DNA from: Methanolobus vulcani
GTDB lineage: Archaea; Halobacteriota; Methanosarcinia; Methanosarcinales; Methanosarcinaceae
Direction of reading: 5' to 3'
DNA length: 64,000 nt
Assembly (NCBI RefSeq): GCF_900100715.1
Contig: NZ_FNCA01000008.1
Span: 1-64,000 of the forward strand
Below the pieces are notes generated by a model, which saw only the letters and a list, made by a program, of their open reading frames with translations, was not told the origin of the DNA and ran no database searches. Positions 35,802-48,214 of the stretch are shown in pieces. A program made the translations under genes and the position numbers. The first letter of the stretch is position 1; every line of letters begins with the position of its first letter.

Positions 35802-36098
35802 TTACTGGCAGCATCCATCCTCACCACAGCAGCATGCTTCGCTATCCATGTCCTTTCCCTTAAGGGCTGCACTGATCATTGCCCACGCACAGCCAACACC
35901 ACTCTGTACTTCAATTGCCTGTACCGGACAATTCCCGGCACATGCTCCACATTCCATGCATAATTCCGGTTTTGTGAGTTCTACATGCTTTTCTCCTTCG
36001 GTGAAAACTCCATGCGGGCAGACATGTGTGCACATAAGACAGTTGATGCATTTTTCAGGATAGTACTGAAGTGTGTTCTCTTTGTATGAATTGAACAT
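35802..36098 (-). CDS. hgcB: HgcB, ferredoxin partner of mercury methylation
   Basis: 98 residues. Two [4Fe-4S] motifs: C17-x2-C20-x2-C23-x3-C27-P (CINCLMCTHVCPHG) and C47-x2-C50-x2-C53-x3-C57-P (CMECGACAGNCP). It ends in a cysteine-rich tail with vicinal pairs (ACCCGEDGCCQ), the hallmark of HgcB and the proposed Hg(II)-delivery site; a conserved Cys follows the second cluster (GVGCAW). GGAG before the ATG at 36098 gives MFNSYKENTL. The ATG overlaps the hgcA stop by one base (TGATG), so the genes are coupled. It reduces the corrinoid of HgcA. Confidence 0.93.
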   Translation of the reverse strand: MFNSYKENTLQYYPEKCINCLMCTHVCPHGVFTEGEKHVELTKPELCMECGACAGNCPVQAIEVQSGVGCAWAMISAALKGKDMDSEACCCGEDGCCQ

Positions 36099-37177
36099 CA
36101 GATCATCTCCTTCAGGTATGCAATTGTCAGAATGAGCAAGCAAAGCAATCCGGCTCCTGCTGTCAGTGCCATGTAAGGTACGTATCTGAATATCTCTTTC
36201 TTAACACCGGTTCTTGATGTATAGGTTGTACAGCCTGTAAAGTTAAGAGCAAGGTAGCCTGTTACTGCCGGTACTATCAGGAACATAGCTATCAGTGATA
36301 GCATTTCTTTCCAGAGGAACATGGTATTATTTGCTGCAAAGCTGATTCCAAATGGCAAGGCTACCAGCCATCCTAAGATCATTCCCTTGATGCTGAGATC
36401 ATGTGCTGGCAGGTAAGGCAGCAGAACAGGGAACAATACTGTTCCTGCAAATGCTGTTACGATTGCAAGAAGTGCTGCAAAAGGACCGGACAGTAGGTAG
36501 AGGATTATCACAGCAATAAATGTCGGTTTGATAACATGGATGAACTCTATCGGTGTCAGTACCAGCCTGTCCCGGAAAGTGAACCTGACCTTTCTCATTT
36601 CAGTCGTTGCAATATGGTTCTTGAGATACTCCGGCAAGTCCTGAGCGCGTACCGGCCCGTATTCTACTTTGAATCCGGATTTGCGTTTAACTTCATGTGC
36701 AGAGACACCAGGTGCTCCAAGCTGTGGTAATATCAGGTTGCGGTGATTGACAAGCTTTGCAAGTCCTGACCACCTGATGCGATATACTATCTCATTAGTG
36801 CCGAATGTTCCTTTTCCGGCAGCACACCAGACATTGATTCCTTTTGTGTCAATGACAAGGATGTAACAGTCAATACCAGCCAGTGAACTGCGCAGTGCAT
36901 CAAAACTGAGTGTGTAGTTGGCAGAAACAAATACCGGTGAATCAGAATCAGGACTACCAAGTTTATAGATGCCCGGTTCTACTATATGTCCCATCCTGTT
37001 AACTCCCCAGCGGGCAAGGAAATGGTCAAGCCTGTCGTTGGAAGTGATTAAGCTTGTTGTTTCACGGATCTGCGGTGCAGGGACGTTTTTGTCCAGACCT
37101 ATCATCTGAATGAACTGGCCGGTATCCGCTTTGCTGTCAGAAGGGCAGCATGAACCTTTATCTATGGTGTCGTCCAT
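36098..37177 (-). CDS. hgcA: HgcA, corrinoid membrane protein for mercury methylation
   Basis: 359 residues. N-terminal cytosolic corrinoid-binding domain with the cap-helix signature N115-V-W-C118-A-A-G-K (INVWCAAGKGTFGT); C118 is the lower ligand of cobalt. The C-terminal third holds about five membrane helices (FIAVIILYLLSGPFAALLAI; MILGWLVALPFGISFAAN; MLSLIAMFLIVPAVTGYLAL; MALTAGAGLLCLLILTIAYL). HgcA transfers a methyl group to Hg(II), giving methylmercury. AGGTGA precedes the ATG at 37177 (MDDTIDKGSCC); the frame runs on up to 37246 but without a ribosome site. The HgcB gene overlaps its stop. Confidence 0.95.
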   Translation of the reverse strand: MDDTIDKGSCCPSDSKADTGQFIQMIGLDKNVPAPQIRETTSLITSNDRLDHFLARWGVNRMGHIVEPGIYKLGSPDSDSPVFVSANYTLSFDALRSSLAGIDCYILVIDTKGINVWCAAGKGTFGTNEIVYRIRWSGLAKLVNHRNLILPQLGAPGVSAHEVKRKSGFKVEYGPVRAQDLPEYLKNHIATTEMRKVRFTFRDRLVLTPIEFIHVIKPTFIAVIILYLLSGPFAALLAIVTAFAGTVLFPVLLPYLPAHDLSIKGMILGWLVALPFGISFAANNTMFLWKEMLSLIAMFLIVPAVTGYLALNFTGCTTYTSRTGVKKEIFRYVPYMALTAGAGLLCLLILTIAYLKEMI

Positions 37178-37502
37178 GTTTTTCACCTTGAAATAGGAAT
37201 GTTTCAAAAAGATTTGAACAATTAGTAGTATGGTGGGAGGCTGCACTTATATTTATCTGATAGATTGTGACAAGGGTGTTTTCTTGATATAATAATTGAG
37301 GATAGAAGTTTATTTTTTCGTTTATGGAATGTGCCGGCTTCGCCGGGACTTCTTCGACATGTTTTTTACTATATTTTCCGATTAGTCAACTTTAACGCAA
37401 AAGTAATTTCAAAATTGCTATGCGTGTTGTAAAATGAGATTTAACATATAAATTAATCTTTTGTATACTAAATTTAATTGGAAGTTTTCTTTTATTGGGT
37501 GG
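37178..37502. other. intergenic region upstream of hgcA
   Basis: 325 bases. A GC-rich hairpin CCGGC-TTC-GCCGG at 37334-37346 stands out in AT-rich DNA, with GTTTTTT about 15 bases further on the plus strand. It could terminate a plus-strand transcript or lie in the hgcA upstream region; no ORF is seen. The hgcA promoter must be here. Confidence 0.5.
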
Positions 37503-37778
37503 TTACGGAGAAGTGTTAACAAGTGCGAGTGCCGACTCCATCTTGGAGGACCAATCATTCCACAGAACAATTATAATCACAAAGGAAAGAATAAAAAAAA
37601 TGATATTTATCCATATTCTACCATTTTCATTCAACTTATCTTTAGCTACATAATCATCTATTAATCTGAAAAGAGTAGTTATAAATAAATTTCCTGCAAT
37701 TCCAGCAGCCAAACCTATACCTAGTGCAGCATAAAACAAAAATGAACTAAAGGCTTCAGAATTCATATCATTACCCAA
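37503..37778 (-). CDS. small membrane protein (91 aa)
   Basis: Two hydrophobic segments: residues ~12-34 (FLFYAALGIGLAAGIAGNLF) and ~56-73 (IWINIIFFILSFVIIIVL), with a polar loop RLIDDYVAKDKLNENGR between them. No known motif. The start is ATG 37778; the ATG at 37766 (MNSEAF) is an alternative. It is AT-rich and lies alone between divergent and unrelated genes. Function unknown. Confidence 0.5.
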   Translation of the reverse strand: MGNDMNSEAFSSFLFYAALGIGLAAGIAGNLFITTLFRLIDDYVAKDKLNENGRIWINIIFFILSFVIIIVLWNDWSSKMESALALVNTSP

Positions 37779-38171: not shown

Positions 38172-39185
38172 TCAAATCAACAAATCACTCAGATCGATCT
38201 CTTCCCCAGTCCTCAACTGGTCTCTCATAAGTGTGATCTTCCTGTCAATTTTCTCAAGGCTTTCCAGATGCTTTTTCTCATCATCTGTGGTCTTCAGAAG
38301 TTTTGAGATGCCGCCGTTCTTGATGACAATACGCTGGTCTGCCGACAGGGCTAAAAGTGGGTCATGAGTGCTGATAAGGACAATCTTATTGTTACTTACC
38401 AGAAGTTCAAGGGATTTGACCTTGTCAACTCCGGCATTCTCAATTTCGTCTATCAGGACAACGGATGCAGGGCTTAGGAGCGCTGTGTCTGCTATCATCA
38501 GGGCTCTGGATTGTCCTCCTGAGAGTTGTGTAACAGGAGTTTCCCGGCTGAAAGGTTCGCCTGCAAGGACGTTTGCAGTATCGTATATCTTCTGGACAAT
38601 GTGGTGGATCTCATCGACCATACGGCTCTCGGCATGAAGTGTCAGGAAATCCTCGACGCTCAGGTCCATGACAAAATTCATGTTCTGGGAAAGTTGTGCG
38701 ATAAAGCGTCCTTCAGTTGAGAAACGTTCCTCATCTGTAGGGGAGCGGCCATCCACCAGTATGCTTCGTCCAGTGGGTGTGTCTTTCTGCGCCAGTGATT
38801 CAATATCAGCCAACAGGCGGGATTTGCCTGATCCGGTTGGACCGACAATTGCTGTCACTTTTCCCTTTTTCAGCTCAACTGAAAAAGCCTCAGTTTCTCC
38901 ATTCTTATTTCGTCCGGGGAAGACTGTCAGTGAATTGATGGAAAATCCACTATCCTGCTTAAGAGCTTTGACCTGCTCGATAAACATGAAGAAACCGTCA
39001 ATAAAGGCATGATAGGTGGTTCCTTTTTCCATAAAATAATCCTTGCCAGGTGTTGAACCTAATTCTTCCAGCTTCAGGTTCCCGATCTCAGCAGGGTCGA
39101 TTGCAAACGAAGAGAAATAATCCTCTATCCAGGGCATCATCTCCATGAGCTCATCTATTGCCATTTGAAGAAGAGTTGTTCTCAT
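38172..39185 (-). CDS. ABC-type ATPase of a cytosolic three-gene system
   Basis: 337 residues. After ~100 helical N-terminal residues without known motif comes an ABC ATPase: Walker A GPTGSGKS, signature LSGGQSRALMIADTALL, Walker B VVLIDEIENAG with the catalytic Glu, and H-loop STHD. No membrane segment, and no permease gene is nearby. ATG 39185 is preferred: GGGGAG is nine bases upstream, and it starts just after the GTPase stop (39187). Acting with the GTPase and the binding-protein-like gene upstream, it may drive a conformational or metal-transfer step. The target is unknown; a plain importer is unlikely without membrane subunits. Confidence 0.8.
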   Translation of the reverse strand: MRTTLLQMAIDELMEMMPWIEDYFSSFAIDPAEIGNLKLEELGSTPGKDYFMEKGTTYHAFIDGFFMFIEQVKALKQDSGFSINSLTVFPGRNKNGETEAFSVELKKGKVTAIVGPTGSGKSRLLADIESLAQKDTPTGRSILVDGRSPTDEERFSTEGRFIAQLSQNMNFVMDLSVEDFLTLHAESRMVDEIHHIVQKIYDTANVLAGEPFSRETPVTQLSGGQSRALMIADTALLSPASVVLIDEIENAGVDKVKSLELLVSNNKIVLISTHDPLLALSADQRIVIKNGGISKLLKTTDDEKKHLESLEKIDRKITLMRDQLRTGEEIDLSDLLI

Positions 39186-39186
39186 T

Positions 39187-39882
39187 TTAGTCATCTCCCC
39201 TGAAATTGACAAGTTTTGAAACACCAATTTGCCTGTCATCGCCTATCTTTCTCTCACCAAGGCAATAAGAGCACAAAGCTCCTGGCATGGTAAACCTGAG
39301 TGTTGCACCTCGTAGTGTATCAACCGAGCTGGTCTTCTCAACTTGCTTTGCAAGGTAGAAACTACCCTGTCCTGTAACGCCGTTGATGTGAATAATCATT
39401 CCTCTTGGGTTGACCTGTCTCACCCTGTATGCAAAGACTTCACGCTCAGCCTGGGAGACAATATCGCCTTTGGTTATGACAACGATGTCTGCCATTTTAA
39501 GCATCGGACCTATCTTTTTAGGTGTGTTGACACCACTGAGGTTATCAATTACACAGATTGCCAGAACATCTTTTATGTGAGGAGAACACCGGTTGCAAAG
39601 ACCTGCACTCTCTGTTATCAGGAAGTCAAAATTCCTGTCTTCAGCCCATTTGATTGCTTCTTCAATATTGCTCACAAAAAAATGATCAGGACAGAGTCCT
39701 CCGGAAAGTCCGGTCCTGACAGGGATACTGTAAGCTGAATAAAGCTCTTCGTCCTGTGCCGAGAGACAATCGAATTTAACTACGCCAACAGTGAAGCCCT
39801 TATTTTTGAGTTCTTCAACTGTCCTGACGATTATGCTGGTTTTTCCTGAAGATGGAGGACCTGCTACCGTAACAAGTCTCAA
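39187..39882 (-). CDS. HypB/UreG-like GTPase with CxxC motifs
   Basis: 231 residues. P-loop GPPSSGKTSIIVRTVEEL, a switch region with FDFLITESAGLCNRCSPH (CxxC), the guanine-specificity motif TKGD, and a C-terminal PGALCSYCLGERKIG (second CxxC). SIMIBI-class GTPases of this kind (HypB, UreG, CobW) insert metals into enzymes; the two CxxC pairs could carry a metal. The start is a TTG at 39882 with GGAGG six bases upstream; it overlaps the stop of the upstream gene (TTGA). Middle gene of a three-gene operon. Confidence 0.85.
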   Translation of the reverse strand: MRLVTVAGPPSSGKTSIIVRTVEELKNKGFTVGVVKFDCLSAQDEELYSAYSIPVRTGLSGGLCPDHFFVSNIEEAIKWAEDRNFDFLITESAGLCNRCSPHIKDVLAICVIDNLSGVNTPKKIGPMLKMADIVVITKGDIVSQAEREVFAYRVRQVNPRGMIIHINGVTGQGSFYLAKQVEKTSSVDTLRGATLRFTMPGALCSYCLGERKIGDDRQIGVSKLVNFRGDD

Positions 39883-41114
39883 ACCACGCCTCCGGTTGTC
39901 ATGAACTGTTTGTTGAATACTTCAGCAATCTCCTTTTTGAGTGCACCGATGTCATTGTTTAGCAGGAAATCCCATCCAAGCCAGTAGAGTGAGCCGACAT
40001 CATCCATCTTATTCTTGACTTCAGGATTTGTTGTCGGGAAGAAAGCCCTGGCAGAAATGTCACCGAACTTCTTTCCGCAAAGGAAATCAATTATTTCCTT
40101 AACTCTTTCAGTTGCTTCCTTTTTTACCAGCATCTGTACCGGACTTACGATTGCTCCTTCTTTTGGTACAGTAATCGAGACCCTGGATTTGTCCTGTATC
40201 TTCATTGCAAAGAAATGAGGCATGATATACATAGGTGGCACATCATCCTTCTTGCTATCTACCATCTTCACCATCTGGGATGGGTGCAGTCCCATATAAA
40301 CCGAGGATGCCAGTTTCCTGATTCCTTCCGTGCCATACATCTGGTAGAATGGAAGCAGTACTCCGTTACAGAAGAATCCATTCTGTCCACGCATAGCAAC
40401 CTTGTTCCTGAATTCGTCTTTCAGGAGTTCTTCCCATGACTCTGGTCTTGGATTATCTCCCATGAGTTCATCTATTGTAACCAGCACAAGGAGATTTCCT
40501 GAGATCATGGTAAACTGTTCACGAGGGTCAGCAAAACCTATCTTCTCAAAGTCACTGTTCATTGGTGATGCACCAAGATCAATGAAGTATTCATGACTCA
40601 GGAAGTTCTCCAGGAATGGTTTATGGTAGAAACTGTTAATATCGGAACTGATGATTATATCCGGTAATTCTTCAACCGACGTTACCGAGTCCATATATGC
40701 ATAGTAGGAAAGTTCATGATTGACGTTACCTTCTACGAGTGAGTGGAGCACATTACCTGTCTGCTTGCTGTACTCGGTAGAGAACTCATTAAGAGCTCGG
40801 TTAAAAGGCATTTTCATGCCACATGGTAAAAGGGCAAGAAGTGTGAGCTCCTTTTGTCTCTGCGGAGCATCGGCAAGGGTGAAATCACCTCTTGATTCAT
40901 TGTCTGCTATAGCCTGGTTCAGTAACTCAATGAATGATTCCTTATTTACTGAAACCATTGAAAGGGCTGTTTTCAGTTTGAGTAATGGTCCGAGTTGTTC
41001 AAGCACATCCTTCGTCTCGAATTTTCCCATCCCATGCTGCTTGAATATTTTCAGTAAAAAGGGATATTCACTTAATATCTGGTATACGCTCATCGTTTCA
41101 TCTATTTTTTCCAT
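39879..41114 (-). CDS. leaderless substrate-binding-protein fold with N-terminal DUF1858-like domain
   Basis: 411 residues. Residues ~8-65 (SVYQILSEYPFLLKIFKQHG, then MGKFETKDVLEQL) resemble DUF1858/ScdA-N. The rest (from ~95) looks like an iron(III)/metal ABC substrate-binding protein (ELPDIIISSDINSFYHKP; PESWEELLKDEFRNKVAMRG; GLHPSQMVKMVDSKKDDVPP; FFPTTNPEVKN). No signal peptide or lipobox, so it should stay in the cytosol. It is the first gene of an overlapping operon with the GTPase and the ABC ATPase. A binding-protein fold used inside the cell beside a metal-insertion type GTPase suggests metallocentre assembly; the ligand is not known. Confidence 0.75.
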   Translation of the reverse strand: MEKIDETMSVYQILSEYPFLLKIFKQHGMGKFETKDVLEQLGPLLKLKTALSMVSVNKESFIELLNQAIADNESRGDFTLADAPQRQKELTLLALLPCGMKMPFNRALNEFSTEYSKQTGNVLHSLVEGNVNHELSYYAYMDSVTSVEELPDIIISSDINSFYHKPFLENFLSHEYFIDLGASPMNSDFEKIGFADPREQFTMISGNLLVLVTIDELMGDNPRPESWEELLKDEFRNKVAMRGQNGFFCNGVLLPFYQMYGTEGIRKLASSVYMGLHPSQMVKMVDSKKDDVPPMYIMPHFFAMKIQDKSRVSITVPKEGAIVSPVQMLVKKEATERVKEIIDFLCGKKFGDISARAFFPTTNPEVKNKMDDVGSLYWLGWDFLLNNDIGALKKEIAEVFNKQFMTTGGVV

Positions 41115-44129: not shown

Positions 44130-47100
44130 TTAAACAAGCATGGCATTAATACTGCCACTTGCTTCTGTCTTTTTTACCTTTGAAGACGCTTTTGCATTTT
44201 TGCTGACTTTAAACTTGGAAACCAGTACCTGCATGTCAGCAGAAATAGTTGATAATACCTGTGCTGAAGCTGCGAGCTCCTGCATTGACGCTGTCTGCTG
44301 TTGTATAGCTGCAGCTGTCTGCTGAGTTCCGGCAGCAGATTCTTCGGAGATGGTAGCAACTTCTTCAATTGAGGTTACAACCTGGTCAATTGACGATGCC
44401 TGCTGTTCTGCCAGTGATGCCATCATCTGGACCATGGTCATGATCTCTTCTCCAGAGCTGACAACCTTTGCTACGGATTCCACTGCCTCTTCAAGAGATT
44501 CATATCCAACAGCAACCTCATTGTTCACCTGTTCCATTGAGGTCACTGCACCATTGGTTCCGTCCTGCATCTCATGAATCAGGTTTGCAATTTGCTTTGC
44601 AGCATTACCGGAATCCTCTGCCAGTTTTCTAACTTCATCTGCAACAACAGCAAATCCACGCCCATGTTCTCCTGCTCTTGCAGCCTCAATAGCAGCATTA
44701 AGAGCAAGGAGGTTGGTCTGGTCTGCAATATTTGTGATAAGGTTAACAATTTCATCGATACGAGTGGATTTTTCAGCCAGGTCATTTATCTGTCTGGCAG
44801 AATCACCGGATGCATCTCTTATGCTATCCATCTTATGTTTGAGAGTATTGGCAATATTCCCAAGGTTCTGTATAAGCTGATTTGAAGTAACAGAGGTTTC
44901 TGCAGTTTTGCTGGAGTTCTCTGCAACTTCCTGAACTGCATTTGTCATTTCATCCATGGATTTTGTAACCTGTTCGGTCTTCAGGGACTGTACCTGTGCA
45001 CCTCTTGCCATCTCCTCAACCGTTGATGATATTTCTGTGGCCGCATAGGTAAGTTCACCGGAAGATGCGGAGATCTGTTCTGCTGTAGCAGCAACGTTCT
45101 GTGCAGATCTTAACATATTACCTACGATCTCATTCAAGGCCAGTCTGCAGTTCTCAACTCCTTCTGAGAGCGTCTTGAATTCTCCAACACCTTCCACTTC
45201 CACTTCTCTTGTCAGGTCATTGGCTGCAATAGCCTCCAGCACTTCATTAGAATCCTCGATAATAGACTGTAATCCTTCACCAAACATGTTCAGGGTATCT
45301 GAGAGTTTCTTGAAGTCACCTCGTGTCTCTATGACAGTTCTGCTATCCAGTTTACCTTCTGCATAATCAGTGATTATCCTTGAAGTTTCTTCAATAGGTG
45401 TTACAATGGCATCAAGACAATTATTCACACCTTCTACAATTTTCCTGAAGTCTCCTCCATGTTTAGATGCATCTGCCCTGGTTTCCAGTCTGCCATCAAC
45501 ACCTGCATCAGCCAGCATTATTGCATCTGCAACAAGCAAATTTACGGCATCGATACACTGGTTTATGTTGTTCTTGATCTCGTTGAAATCTCCCTGGTAC
45601 TCATCTGTGATCTTATCAGGAATGTTACCTTTTGATATACGGTCAATATATTCCGCAGCGACGTTAAGAGGTCCTATAACCGCATCAAGGGTTGAATTGA
45701 CACCTTCTATTATATTCCTGTAATTACCTTCAAAAATGGTAGGGTCAGCACGCTCATCAAGTCTTCCTGCAATGGCTGCATTCACAAGGTCTTCCACACC
45801 TTTTGTAATTTCCATCTCTTTACTTATGTCAAGAACATATTCCAGACCACCTACTAACTCCCCGTCTTTATCACGTAATGCAGTTCCGGTGTATCTGATT
45901 GGAATGGTACCTCCCGGCAGGTTTGCTTTCGTATCGCCTGTGCATACCTCTCCGGTTTTCATGGCACGGCTGACTCTGCATTCTTCTGTGTTACAATGTG
46001 GGGTATTGAAAAGATCAAAACATTTCCGACCAAGACATTCTCCGGTAGTACATCCGACAGCAGAAGCTGCAGCATTATTCATAAACTGGACTGTGAACTC
46101 CTTGTCAACAATCATGACAGGCGTCGGTATCTTTTCAAGGTAATCAACCTTGACATTAGCATCTTCGATGGCATTTCTGATCTCTGTTTTATCAACAACT
46201 ATCTCAAGTGCACCAACAATATTTCCTTTCTGATTTCTTATTGGGACACCATTGTATTCAATGCATAATTCCTGTTCTCCAGGATGTGCAAATGTCTCGC
46301 TTGTTTCACTCTTATTTGAATTCATAGCCCTTGCACAGGCACATTTTCCCGTAAGACAATCATCAGTCTTGAAATGATCGTAACACTTGTCACCAATCAG
46401 TTGTTCTTTTGTTGCACCTAGAACATCGGCTCCTGAATTATTTATGTAAGAAATGTTAAAGTCCCTGTCAATTAGCATTAACGGGGCTGGTATGTGGTTT
46501 ATGTGCCCAACTAATGTGTCAATAACCTGATTGATATTGTTTACCAGTTCACCATATTTGCCATCAAAGACTTCAGCATTACCTCTGGTATCTATCTTTC
46601 CTGCAATAGCCGCATTGATAAGGGAATTTGTTTCTTCAAGAAGCATGCTAAGGGAAGCAATGCACAGGTTCAGGTTGTTCTTTATCTCGTTGAAATCACC
46701 TTTGTAATCATCAGTGATTATATCAGGAATATCTCCCTTTGATATCCTGTCCACATATTCTGCTGTAACATTCAGTGGTCCTATCACGGCATCCAGACAG
46801 TTGTTCACCCTTTCCACAACTCTTCTGAAGTCTCCTGAGTGTCTGCTTGCATCTGCTCTTGTATCAAGTTGTCCTGCAATTCCTGCGTTTGCCAGCACAA
46901 GAGAATCTTCAACAAGTAAGTTGATGGCATCGATACACTGATTCAGGTTATTCTTTATCTCGTTGAAATCCCCGTTGTACTCATCTTTGATTTTTTCTGG
47001 AATGTCACCTTTTGATATCCTGTCCACATATTCTGCTGTAACATTCAGTGGTCCTATCACGGCATCCAGACAGTTGTTCACCCCATCCACAACTCTTCTG

Positions 47101-47951
47101 AAGTCTCCTGAGTGCCTGCTTGAATCTGCTCTTGTATCGAGTTGTCCTTCAACTCCAGCATTTGCCAGCATCATTGAGTCATCAACAAGTAAGTTGATGG
47201 CATCGATACACTGATTCAGGTTATTCTTTATCTCGTTGAAATCCCCGTTGTAGTCATCAGTGATCATATCAGGAATATCTCCCTTTGATAACCTGTCTAC
47301 ATATTCTGCTGTAACATTCAGTGGTCCTATCACAGCGTCCAGACAGTTGTTCACTCCTTCCACAACTCTCCTGAAGTCTCCTGAGTGTTTGCTTGCATCC
47401 GCTCTTGTATCAAGTTGCCCTGCTATCCCTGCGTTAGCCAGTATAAGGGAGTCTTCCACAAGGAAATTCACAGCATCTATACATTGGTTGAGGTTGTTCT
47501 TTATCTCGTTGAAATCCCCTTTGTATTCATCTGTGATCTTTTCAGGTATGTCACCTTTTGATATACGGTCAATATATTCTGCAGAAACATTCAGTGGTCC
47601 TATCACAGCATCAAGTAGCTCATTAATGCCACTGAGAATTTCCTTTGAAGGACCTTCAAAGTTTTCTGCCATTGCTCTTGAATCAAGTTTTCCATCAACA
47701 GCATTTTCCACAAGAGCCGAAATTTCATCTAGCAGTACTACTGCACTATCGCAAACCCTTGCATTTTCTTCCAGCTCTTCTATCTTTGCATTCATATCTG
47801 AAAAGCTGTCTAGTAAAAGATTTATTTGTTCAGCAGCATTCTGGTTCTCAGAATGTGATTGTGCTTGTATTCTGGCATCTAAATTGCCGTTCATAAATTG
47901 AACAAGAACTTCTGATATTTCAGATTGAAATCCTGTATCTTTTTTAAACAT
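44130..47951 (-). CDS. cytosolic poly-HAMP chemoreceptor with two PAS domains (1273 aa)
   Basis: No membrane helix. A short N-terminus is followed by a run of HAMP pairs in 91-residue units ([20 protein letters not shown], then [20 protein letters not shown], then [20 protein letters not shown]); four are in tandem, then two PAS domains ([40 protein letters not shown]), each with a Cys-rich loop ([19 protein letters not shown]), a fifth unit, and an MCP signalling domain ([20 protein letters not shown], then [18 protein letters not shown]). PAS cysteines could bind haem or sense redox. It would signal to CheA, which is not in the window. The ATG at 47951 (MFKKDTG) is chosen over the GTG at 47966. 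Confidence 0.9.
46741..47832 (-). repeat. four tandem 273-bp repeats encoding HAMP pairs
   Basis: Starts of the same segment (GATAT/GATAA, then CTGTCCACATATTC-like) fall at 46741, 47014, 47287 and 47560, exactly 273 bases apart. Long identical tracts, such as CATATTCTGCTGTAACATTC in three of the units, show recent duplication or gene conversion. The number of units could differ among strains. Confidence 0.85.
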
Positions 47952-48214
47952 CCCTATCCCTTTCACAACAGTTTAATTGTTACCCATAAAAATATCCACA
48001 TACATCTAAGCTGACAGATATTTTTACAAAGATTCGAATAATTAAACTTTTTAATTGTACTACACATTATATATATATATTTATGTATTGTAGTTTATTT
48101 ATTTATAATGTTGTTATTTAGTACGAACTACAGAAAACAGGCTACATTTAAACAAAAAAAACAAAATATAGAAAAAAGTAGGATTGTAAAAAGAGAGCAA
48201 TTATGAAACTTCAA

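Follow-up and report, generated by a model that had tools for sequence, protein, structure and literature searches.

The window analysed here, a stretch of 64,000 nucleotides from a genome of the methanogenic archaeon Methanolobus (2.95 Mb, 99.98% complete), carries three tightly packed genes for a leaderless binding protein, a HypB/UreG-like GTPase and a soluble ABC ATPase, and this trio is syntenic in more than 100 loci from more than 10 phyla of anaerobes. Because it recurs beside genes for metal enzymes of nitrogen fixation or nitric-oxide defence, its probable role is the loading or repair of intracellular metal centres. Our leading interpretation, to which we give not quite an even chance, is that the three proteins act as one cytosolic machine for a metal or metallocluster precursor, and that the likeliest client of the window copy is nitrogenase cofactor assembly, since this copy groups with nitrogenase- and molybdenum-linked lineages. 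No published description was found in the literature searched, in which coverage of subscription papers was limited; as far as that search shows, this widespread three-gene set is undescribed and uncharacterised. The features of the locus are as follows:

38172-41114, minus strand: the trio (binding protein, GTPase, ABC ATPase), tightly packed ORFs
39879..41114, minus strand: leaderless binding protein, DUF1858 plus SBP_bac_6, 411 aa (domain search, AlphaFold model)
40929..41105, minus strand: DUF1858 domain of the binding protein (PF08984, 45.7 bits; profile match to 2fi0, E 3.7e-6)
40821..40826, minus strand: Pro97-Cys98 at the start of the binding domain, invariant in 62/62 sequences
40368..40370, minus strand: Cys249, marking the nif/Mo-linked and archaeal lineages, Phe in the Hcp lineage (residue comparison)
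40209..40214, minus strand: Phe301-Phe302, where ferric-binding proteins have the iron-binding Tyr-Tyr (HMMER alignment to 1y4t)
39187..39882, minus strand: SIMIBI GTPase of the HypB/UreG superfamily, 231 aa, TTG start (domain search, alignment)
39682..39693, minus strand: CPDH motif of the GTPase, residues 64-67, aligned with the nickel-binding CPH of UreG (133/133 sequences)
39586..39597, minus strand: first CxxC of the GTPase, C96 and C99, invariant in 133/133
39262..39273, minus strand: second CxxC of the GTPase, C204 and C207, invariant in 133/133
38172..39185, minus strand: soluble ABC ATPase, likely 337 aa (ABC_tran match; listed ORF start 39239)
38940..39185, minus strand: DUF1858-type N-terminal domain of the ABC ATPase, homologous to the DUF1858 of the binding protein
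35802..37246, minus strand: hgcA and hgcB, the mercury methylation pair, outside the core trio (NCBIfam equivalogs above cut-off)

The stop codon of the binding-protein gene overlaps the TTG start of the GTPase gene in the TTGA at 39882, and an ATG at 39185 stands 1 bp from the GTPase stop (39187). Given this spacing, and a resulting length of 337 residues that matches the relatives, the ATG at 39185 is probably the true start of the ATPase and the listed ORF of 355 residues 18 residues too long. The preliminary description of the locus had proposed overlapping or adjacent genes for a leaderless binding-fold protein with a DUF1858-like N-terminus, a SIMIBI GTPase with two CxxC motifs and a soluble ABC ATPase, and no membrane subunit. 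Our data bear out this picture: the coordinates and the minus strand agree, domain matches and hydropathy support the binding protein, both CxxC motifs are invariant throughout the alignment, and the ABC_tran match comes without a membrane part. None of the three proteins (0/3) reaches a curated NCBIfam equivalog, and no viral relatives were found.

Two attributes of ABC importers, a permease encoded with the system and an exported binding protein, are missing. A permease is absent from the window locus and from beside the more than 100 homologous loci, and none is kept beside the trio in the loci examined, with the exception of one sub-lineage in which the trio adjoins a complete FepB/FecCD importer. 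In these loci neither of the two findings that the preliminary description had named as refuting, a conserved permease or an export signal in homologues, was made. Neither a signal peptide nor a lipobox was detected by hydropathy when the homologues were compared with secreted controls: the best N-terminal hydrophobic segment of the window protein scores 0.95, against at least 2.1 in the secreted binding proteins of the surveyed loci, and the score never exceeds 1.75 among the homologues, of which 0/73 have an export signal.

In the domain search the 411-residue protein matched DUF1858 (5.5e-11) and SBP_bac_6 (9.2e-66), and beyond this PF08984 match no other DUF1858 was found across the genome. 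The AlphaFold model (pLDDT 89) combines a class II binding fold with a helical domain at the N-terminus, and the nearest solved folds are those of the ferric-binding proteins FbpA, FutA and SfuA (Z about 22; Foldseek, VIA-align). In contrast to these, the trio protein has no signal peptide, possesses an N-terminal DUF1858, and shows Phe-Phe at the Tyr-Tyr position in 61/62 sequences, as judged by alignment with the Campylobacter ferric-binding protein 1y4t. Since the Tyr-Tyr iron ligands are replaced, Fe(III) binding of the FbpA type is unsupported; judging from the residues, the fold of a metal binder appears to be kept and its ferric site gone. The 'metal-type binding fold' suggested at first inspection therefore stands as regards the fold, but not as regards the iron-binding pair. 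Asp152, Ser156, His277-Pro278 and two Trp are further invariant residues.

The 231-residue protein contains a cobW/HypB/UreG domain (4.6e-13, domain search), and its structure model resembles UreG and HypB, which are nickel-insertion GTPases. Like them it has a SIMIBI fold with a P-loop GTPase core and an aligned metal motif of the C-P-(x)-H type, and residues C64, H67, C96, C99, C110, C204 and C207 are invariant among 133 sequences. It differs from both in its two extra CxxC motifs, in its partners, an ABC ATPase and a binding-fold protein, and in scores that lie below the curated cut-offs (54.1 bits versus 121.2 for HypB, TIGR00073; 36.9 bits versus 204.2 for UreG, TIGR00101).

The third protein matches ABC_tran (8.1e-17, domain search) and retains all catalytic motifs, with invariant Walker A, LSGGQ, Walker B and H-loop residues; no solved structures lie near it at E 1e-20. 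An hhalign comparison pairs its N-terminal domain with the DUF1858 of the binding protein (probability 96.5%, E 7.5e-10), whereas control pairs stay below 2%; through these DUF1858-type domains the two proteins may bind each other or share a docking partner. A soluble ABC ATPase also operates in Fe-S assembly, in SufBCD, which includes neither a GTPase nor a binding-fold protein. A precedent for an ABC ATPase as soluble motor in metallocofactor activation is the A2 component of the methyl-coenzyme M reductase activation complex, an ABC-type ATPase that works without a permease (PMC12176620). Unlike the trio ATPase, A2 consists of two fused ABC domains, and it has no HypB-like GTPase or binding-fold partner (PMC12176620).

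With the GTPase as probe 548 bacterial and archaeal relatives were found, and among the best 80 of these 548, which were retained for the analysis of loci, the order binding protein-GTPase-ABC is kept in about 75/80. Median identity to the window copy is about 65% for the GTPase, 49% for the ABC ATPase and 31% for the binding protein, and archaeal and bacterial GTPases are about 65% identical. Synteny across more than 10 phyla at such GTPase identity rules out chance.

The trios occur in two genomic contexts. Many bacterial trios adjoin genes for hybrid cluster protein (Hcp), the nitric-oxide-induced family YgbA, Crp/Fnr or Rrf2 regulators, or a HypA-like zinc ribbon. In samples of Clostridia and Desulfuromonadia genomes, drawn without regard to trio presence, others adjoin nifB, nifH, nifX, nifD, modABC and modE. 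The two contexts form separate clades on the GTPase tree (133 sequences): in the H clade Hcp, sm81 or YgbA neighbours occur in 54/72 loci and nif/mod genes in 0/72, whereas in the N1 and N2 clades together nif/mod neighbours occur in 21/32 and Hcp-type genes in 0/32. An additional group on the tree adjoins FepB/FecCD importers. Some genomes (G682, G704, G754, G409) carry two trios each, one per type; several Desulfuromonadia genomes are of this kind. Within the Desulfuromonadia nifD is present in 21/21 genomes with an N-type trio versus 5/12 with H only (p = 2e-4, a value limited, like all our co-occurrence p-values, by phylogenetic non-independence). In place of the single recurrent partner enzyme for which a neighbourhood survey had been proposed, there are several partners, differing by lineage. 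Behind H-type trios, at L115:9734-9979 and in 24 further loci, lies an 80-residue zinc-ribbon protein that matches HypA weakly and has no name in NCBIfam.

The binding proteins differ accordingly between the lineages. Tyr137 and Cys249 occur together in the window protein, in all N1, all N2 and the archaeal sequences, and in 0/65 of the H clade; position 249 is Cys in 34/34 N1, N2 and archaeal sequences and Phe in 65/65 H sequences. Both residues may line the pocket, and the two lineages may therefore bind different ligands. The ligand need not be molybdenum, because the Hcp lineage exists; molybdenum as the only ligand was rejected, molybdenum-cofactor genes lying near some H trios in an inconsistent pattern. 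The N1 trio is short, with a binding protein that has no DUF1858. In the Desulfuromonadia sample NifQ occurs in 0/14 N1 and 7/7 N2 genomes, with the second trio copies of G706 and G745 placed in N2 and N1, respectively, by analogy with close relatives. A role as NifQ substitute is accordingly unsupported for the N2 lineage; in genomes without NifQ, N1 might deliver molybdenum in its stead.

The window copy lies outside the H clade on the GTPase tree as well as on the concatenated GTPase and ABC tree, and its binding protein has the N-type Tyr137 and Cys249. The GTPase tree joins it to N2 with a support of 0.904; the concatenated tree, in which the H clade is well supported and the deep branches are weak, gives that branch no support. 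These weak branches leave the archaeal trios and N2 as no more than possible sisters, which counts against the nitrogenase interpretation. On the other hand, nifD is present in 18/18 archaeal carrier genomes searched, and among 16 Methanosarcina genomes a third nifD-like gene occurs only in the four trio carriers; it is vnfD in the three where it was identified. The weight of this pattern is lessened by the fact that the four carriers may be one clade. The M. acetivorans-like genome G398 has a second trio, which adjoins split homocitrate synthase genes and is separated from vnf/anf by about 10 kb. The binding protein of this second trio (L075:4810-10627) is without the Pro-Cys motif. Within Methanolobus, two further observations speak against nitrogenase as client: nif genes are lacking next to the trio, and one copy (L048) adjoins hcp. 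As nif occurs in 11/14 trio-less species, the association of trio and nif within this genus is not significant (p = 0.14). After the trio of two Methanolobus genomes (L048:11998-12294, L074:12689-13078) we observed a small conserved protein with a DDQKKALDNW motif, which is not seen there in the window.

The neighbours of the H lineage allow a different explanation, in which the trio, whatever its lineage, shields Fe-S and hybrid-cluster enzymes from nitrosative stress or mends them; Hcp would then be the client in general, and nitrogenase another NO-sensitive target. Besides the Hcp, YgbA, Crp/Fnr and Rrf2 neighbours in many bacteria, it can draw on the presence of Hcp in 46/50 carrier genomes, on its distribution in Clostridia (13/13 carriers versus 79/183 others, p = 3e-5), on the hcp gene adjoining the trio in Methanolobus G004, and on the DUF1858 domain, which we counted in its favour. 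The adjacency of H-type trios to hcp and Crp/Fnr regulators also recalls the HcpR/Hcp nitrosative-stress regulon; no mention of the trio appears in the passages of that study consulted (PMC1274295), and the window copy belongs to another lineage. We nevertheless regard this explanation as unlikely, for the nif-linked lineages never have Hcp-type neighbours and differ in their pocket residues, and Methanosarcina G353 and G398 possess the trio without Hcp. On these grounds, the two Methanosarcina carriers and the N-type loci that never lie beside hcp, Hcp was rejected as universal partner.

An origin from transport has to be weighed as well. The importer-type fold of the binding protein and the one lineage beside FepB/FecCD importers could point to a former ABC importer, now orphaned, which after the loss of its permease and secretion signal serves as regulator or sensor of a cytosolic small molecule. 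This we consider quite improbable, since the set never lacks its UreG-like GTPase with invariant metal-type motifs, the catalytic ABC motifs are invariant, and the importer of the FepB-linked lineage has its own binding protein. That the trio is a true transporter with a permease encoded elsewhere is the least credible possibility, given more than 100 loci without a permease beside them outside the FepB-linked lineage and binding proteins without export signal in all lineages. Hardly more credible is a service to HgcAB, e.g. in maturing the corrinoid or the clusters of this mercury-methylation pair. The hgcAB genes lie just downstream of the trio in the window; the linkage is found in the majority of Methanolobus carriers, though not in every one, the genes being contiguous in L054, and hgcA and trio co-occur in the genus (p = 0.0008 to 0.0026). 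However, Methanolobus G007 has the trio without hgcA, Methanosarcina acetivorans falls under the hgcA cut-off, four genomes of the same genus have hgcA without the trio, hgcA stands beside the trio in 0 of the bacterial loci scanned, and shared descent of the region explains the linkage. HgcAB was therefore rejected as general partner, and hgcAB are treated as neighbours because they are absent from other trio carriers. Within the genus hgcA is patchy, and it is stop-broken in G015. The window further contains a 91-residue membrane-type ORF of no confident family between the ABC ATPase and hgcA (37503-37778, minus strand) and a 1278-residue chemoreceptor-like protein with several near-identical internal repeats (44130-47966, minus strand).

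We thus return to a cytosolic metal or metallocluster machine, for which we infer a complex, a ligand, a direction of transfer and a client as follows. Capture of the ligand, a metal or cluster precursor, would fall to the leaderless binding protein; with the thiolates of its CPDH and CxxC motifs the HypB/UreG-like GTPase would retain the ligand or let it go; and a dimer of the ABC ATPase would drive opening or hand-over, docked through the DUF1858-type domains that it has in common with the binding protein and that would replace a membrane permease. Clients would differ by lineage, the likeliest for the window copy being nitrogenase cofactor assembly (Mo or V, or an Fe-S precursor). The intracellular metal or metallocofactor delivery anticipated in the preliminary description is the best-supported reading, as regards the C-P-H motif and the metallocluster-enzyme neighbours. 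It is possible, though we hold it only tentatively and would not bet on it, that the trio represents a new class of machine driven by both ATP and GTP, in which a binding fold and an ABC ATPase joined via homologous docking domains cooperate with a metallo-GTPase in loading complex metalloclusters, with paralogues for the nitrogenase cofactor and for hybrid cluster protein.

How metals or cluster precursors move to nitrogenase and hybrid cluster protein in anaerobes is largely an open question. The lineage-wise tracking of these enzymes by the trio, together with the differing pocket residues, makes the question of metal delivery directly testable in genetic hosts, among them Methanosarcina acetivorans and Geobacter-type bacteria, and the trio may supply a component still lacking for the reconstruction of nitrogenase in foreign hosts.
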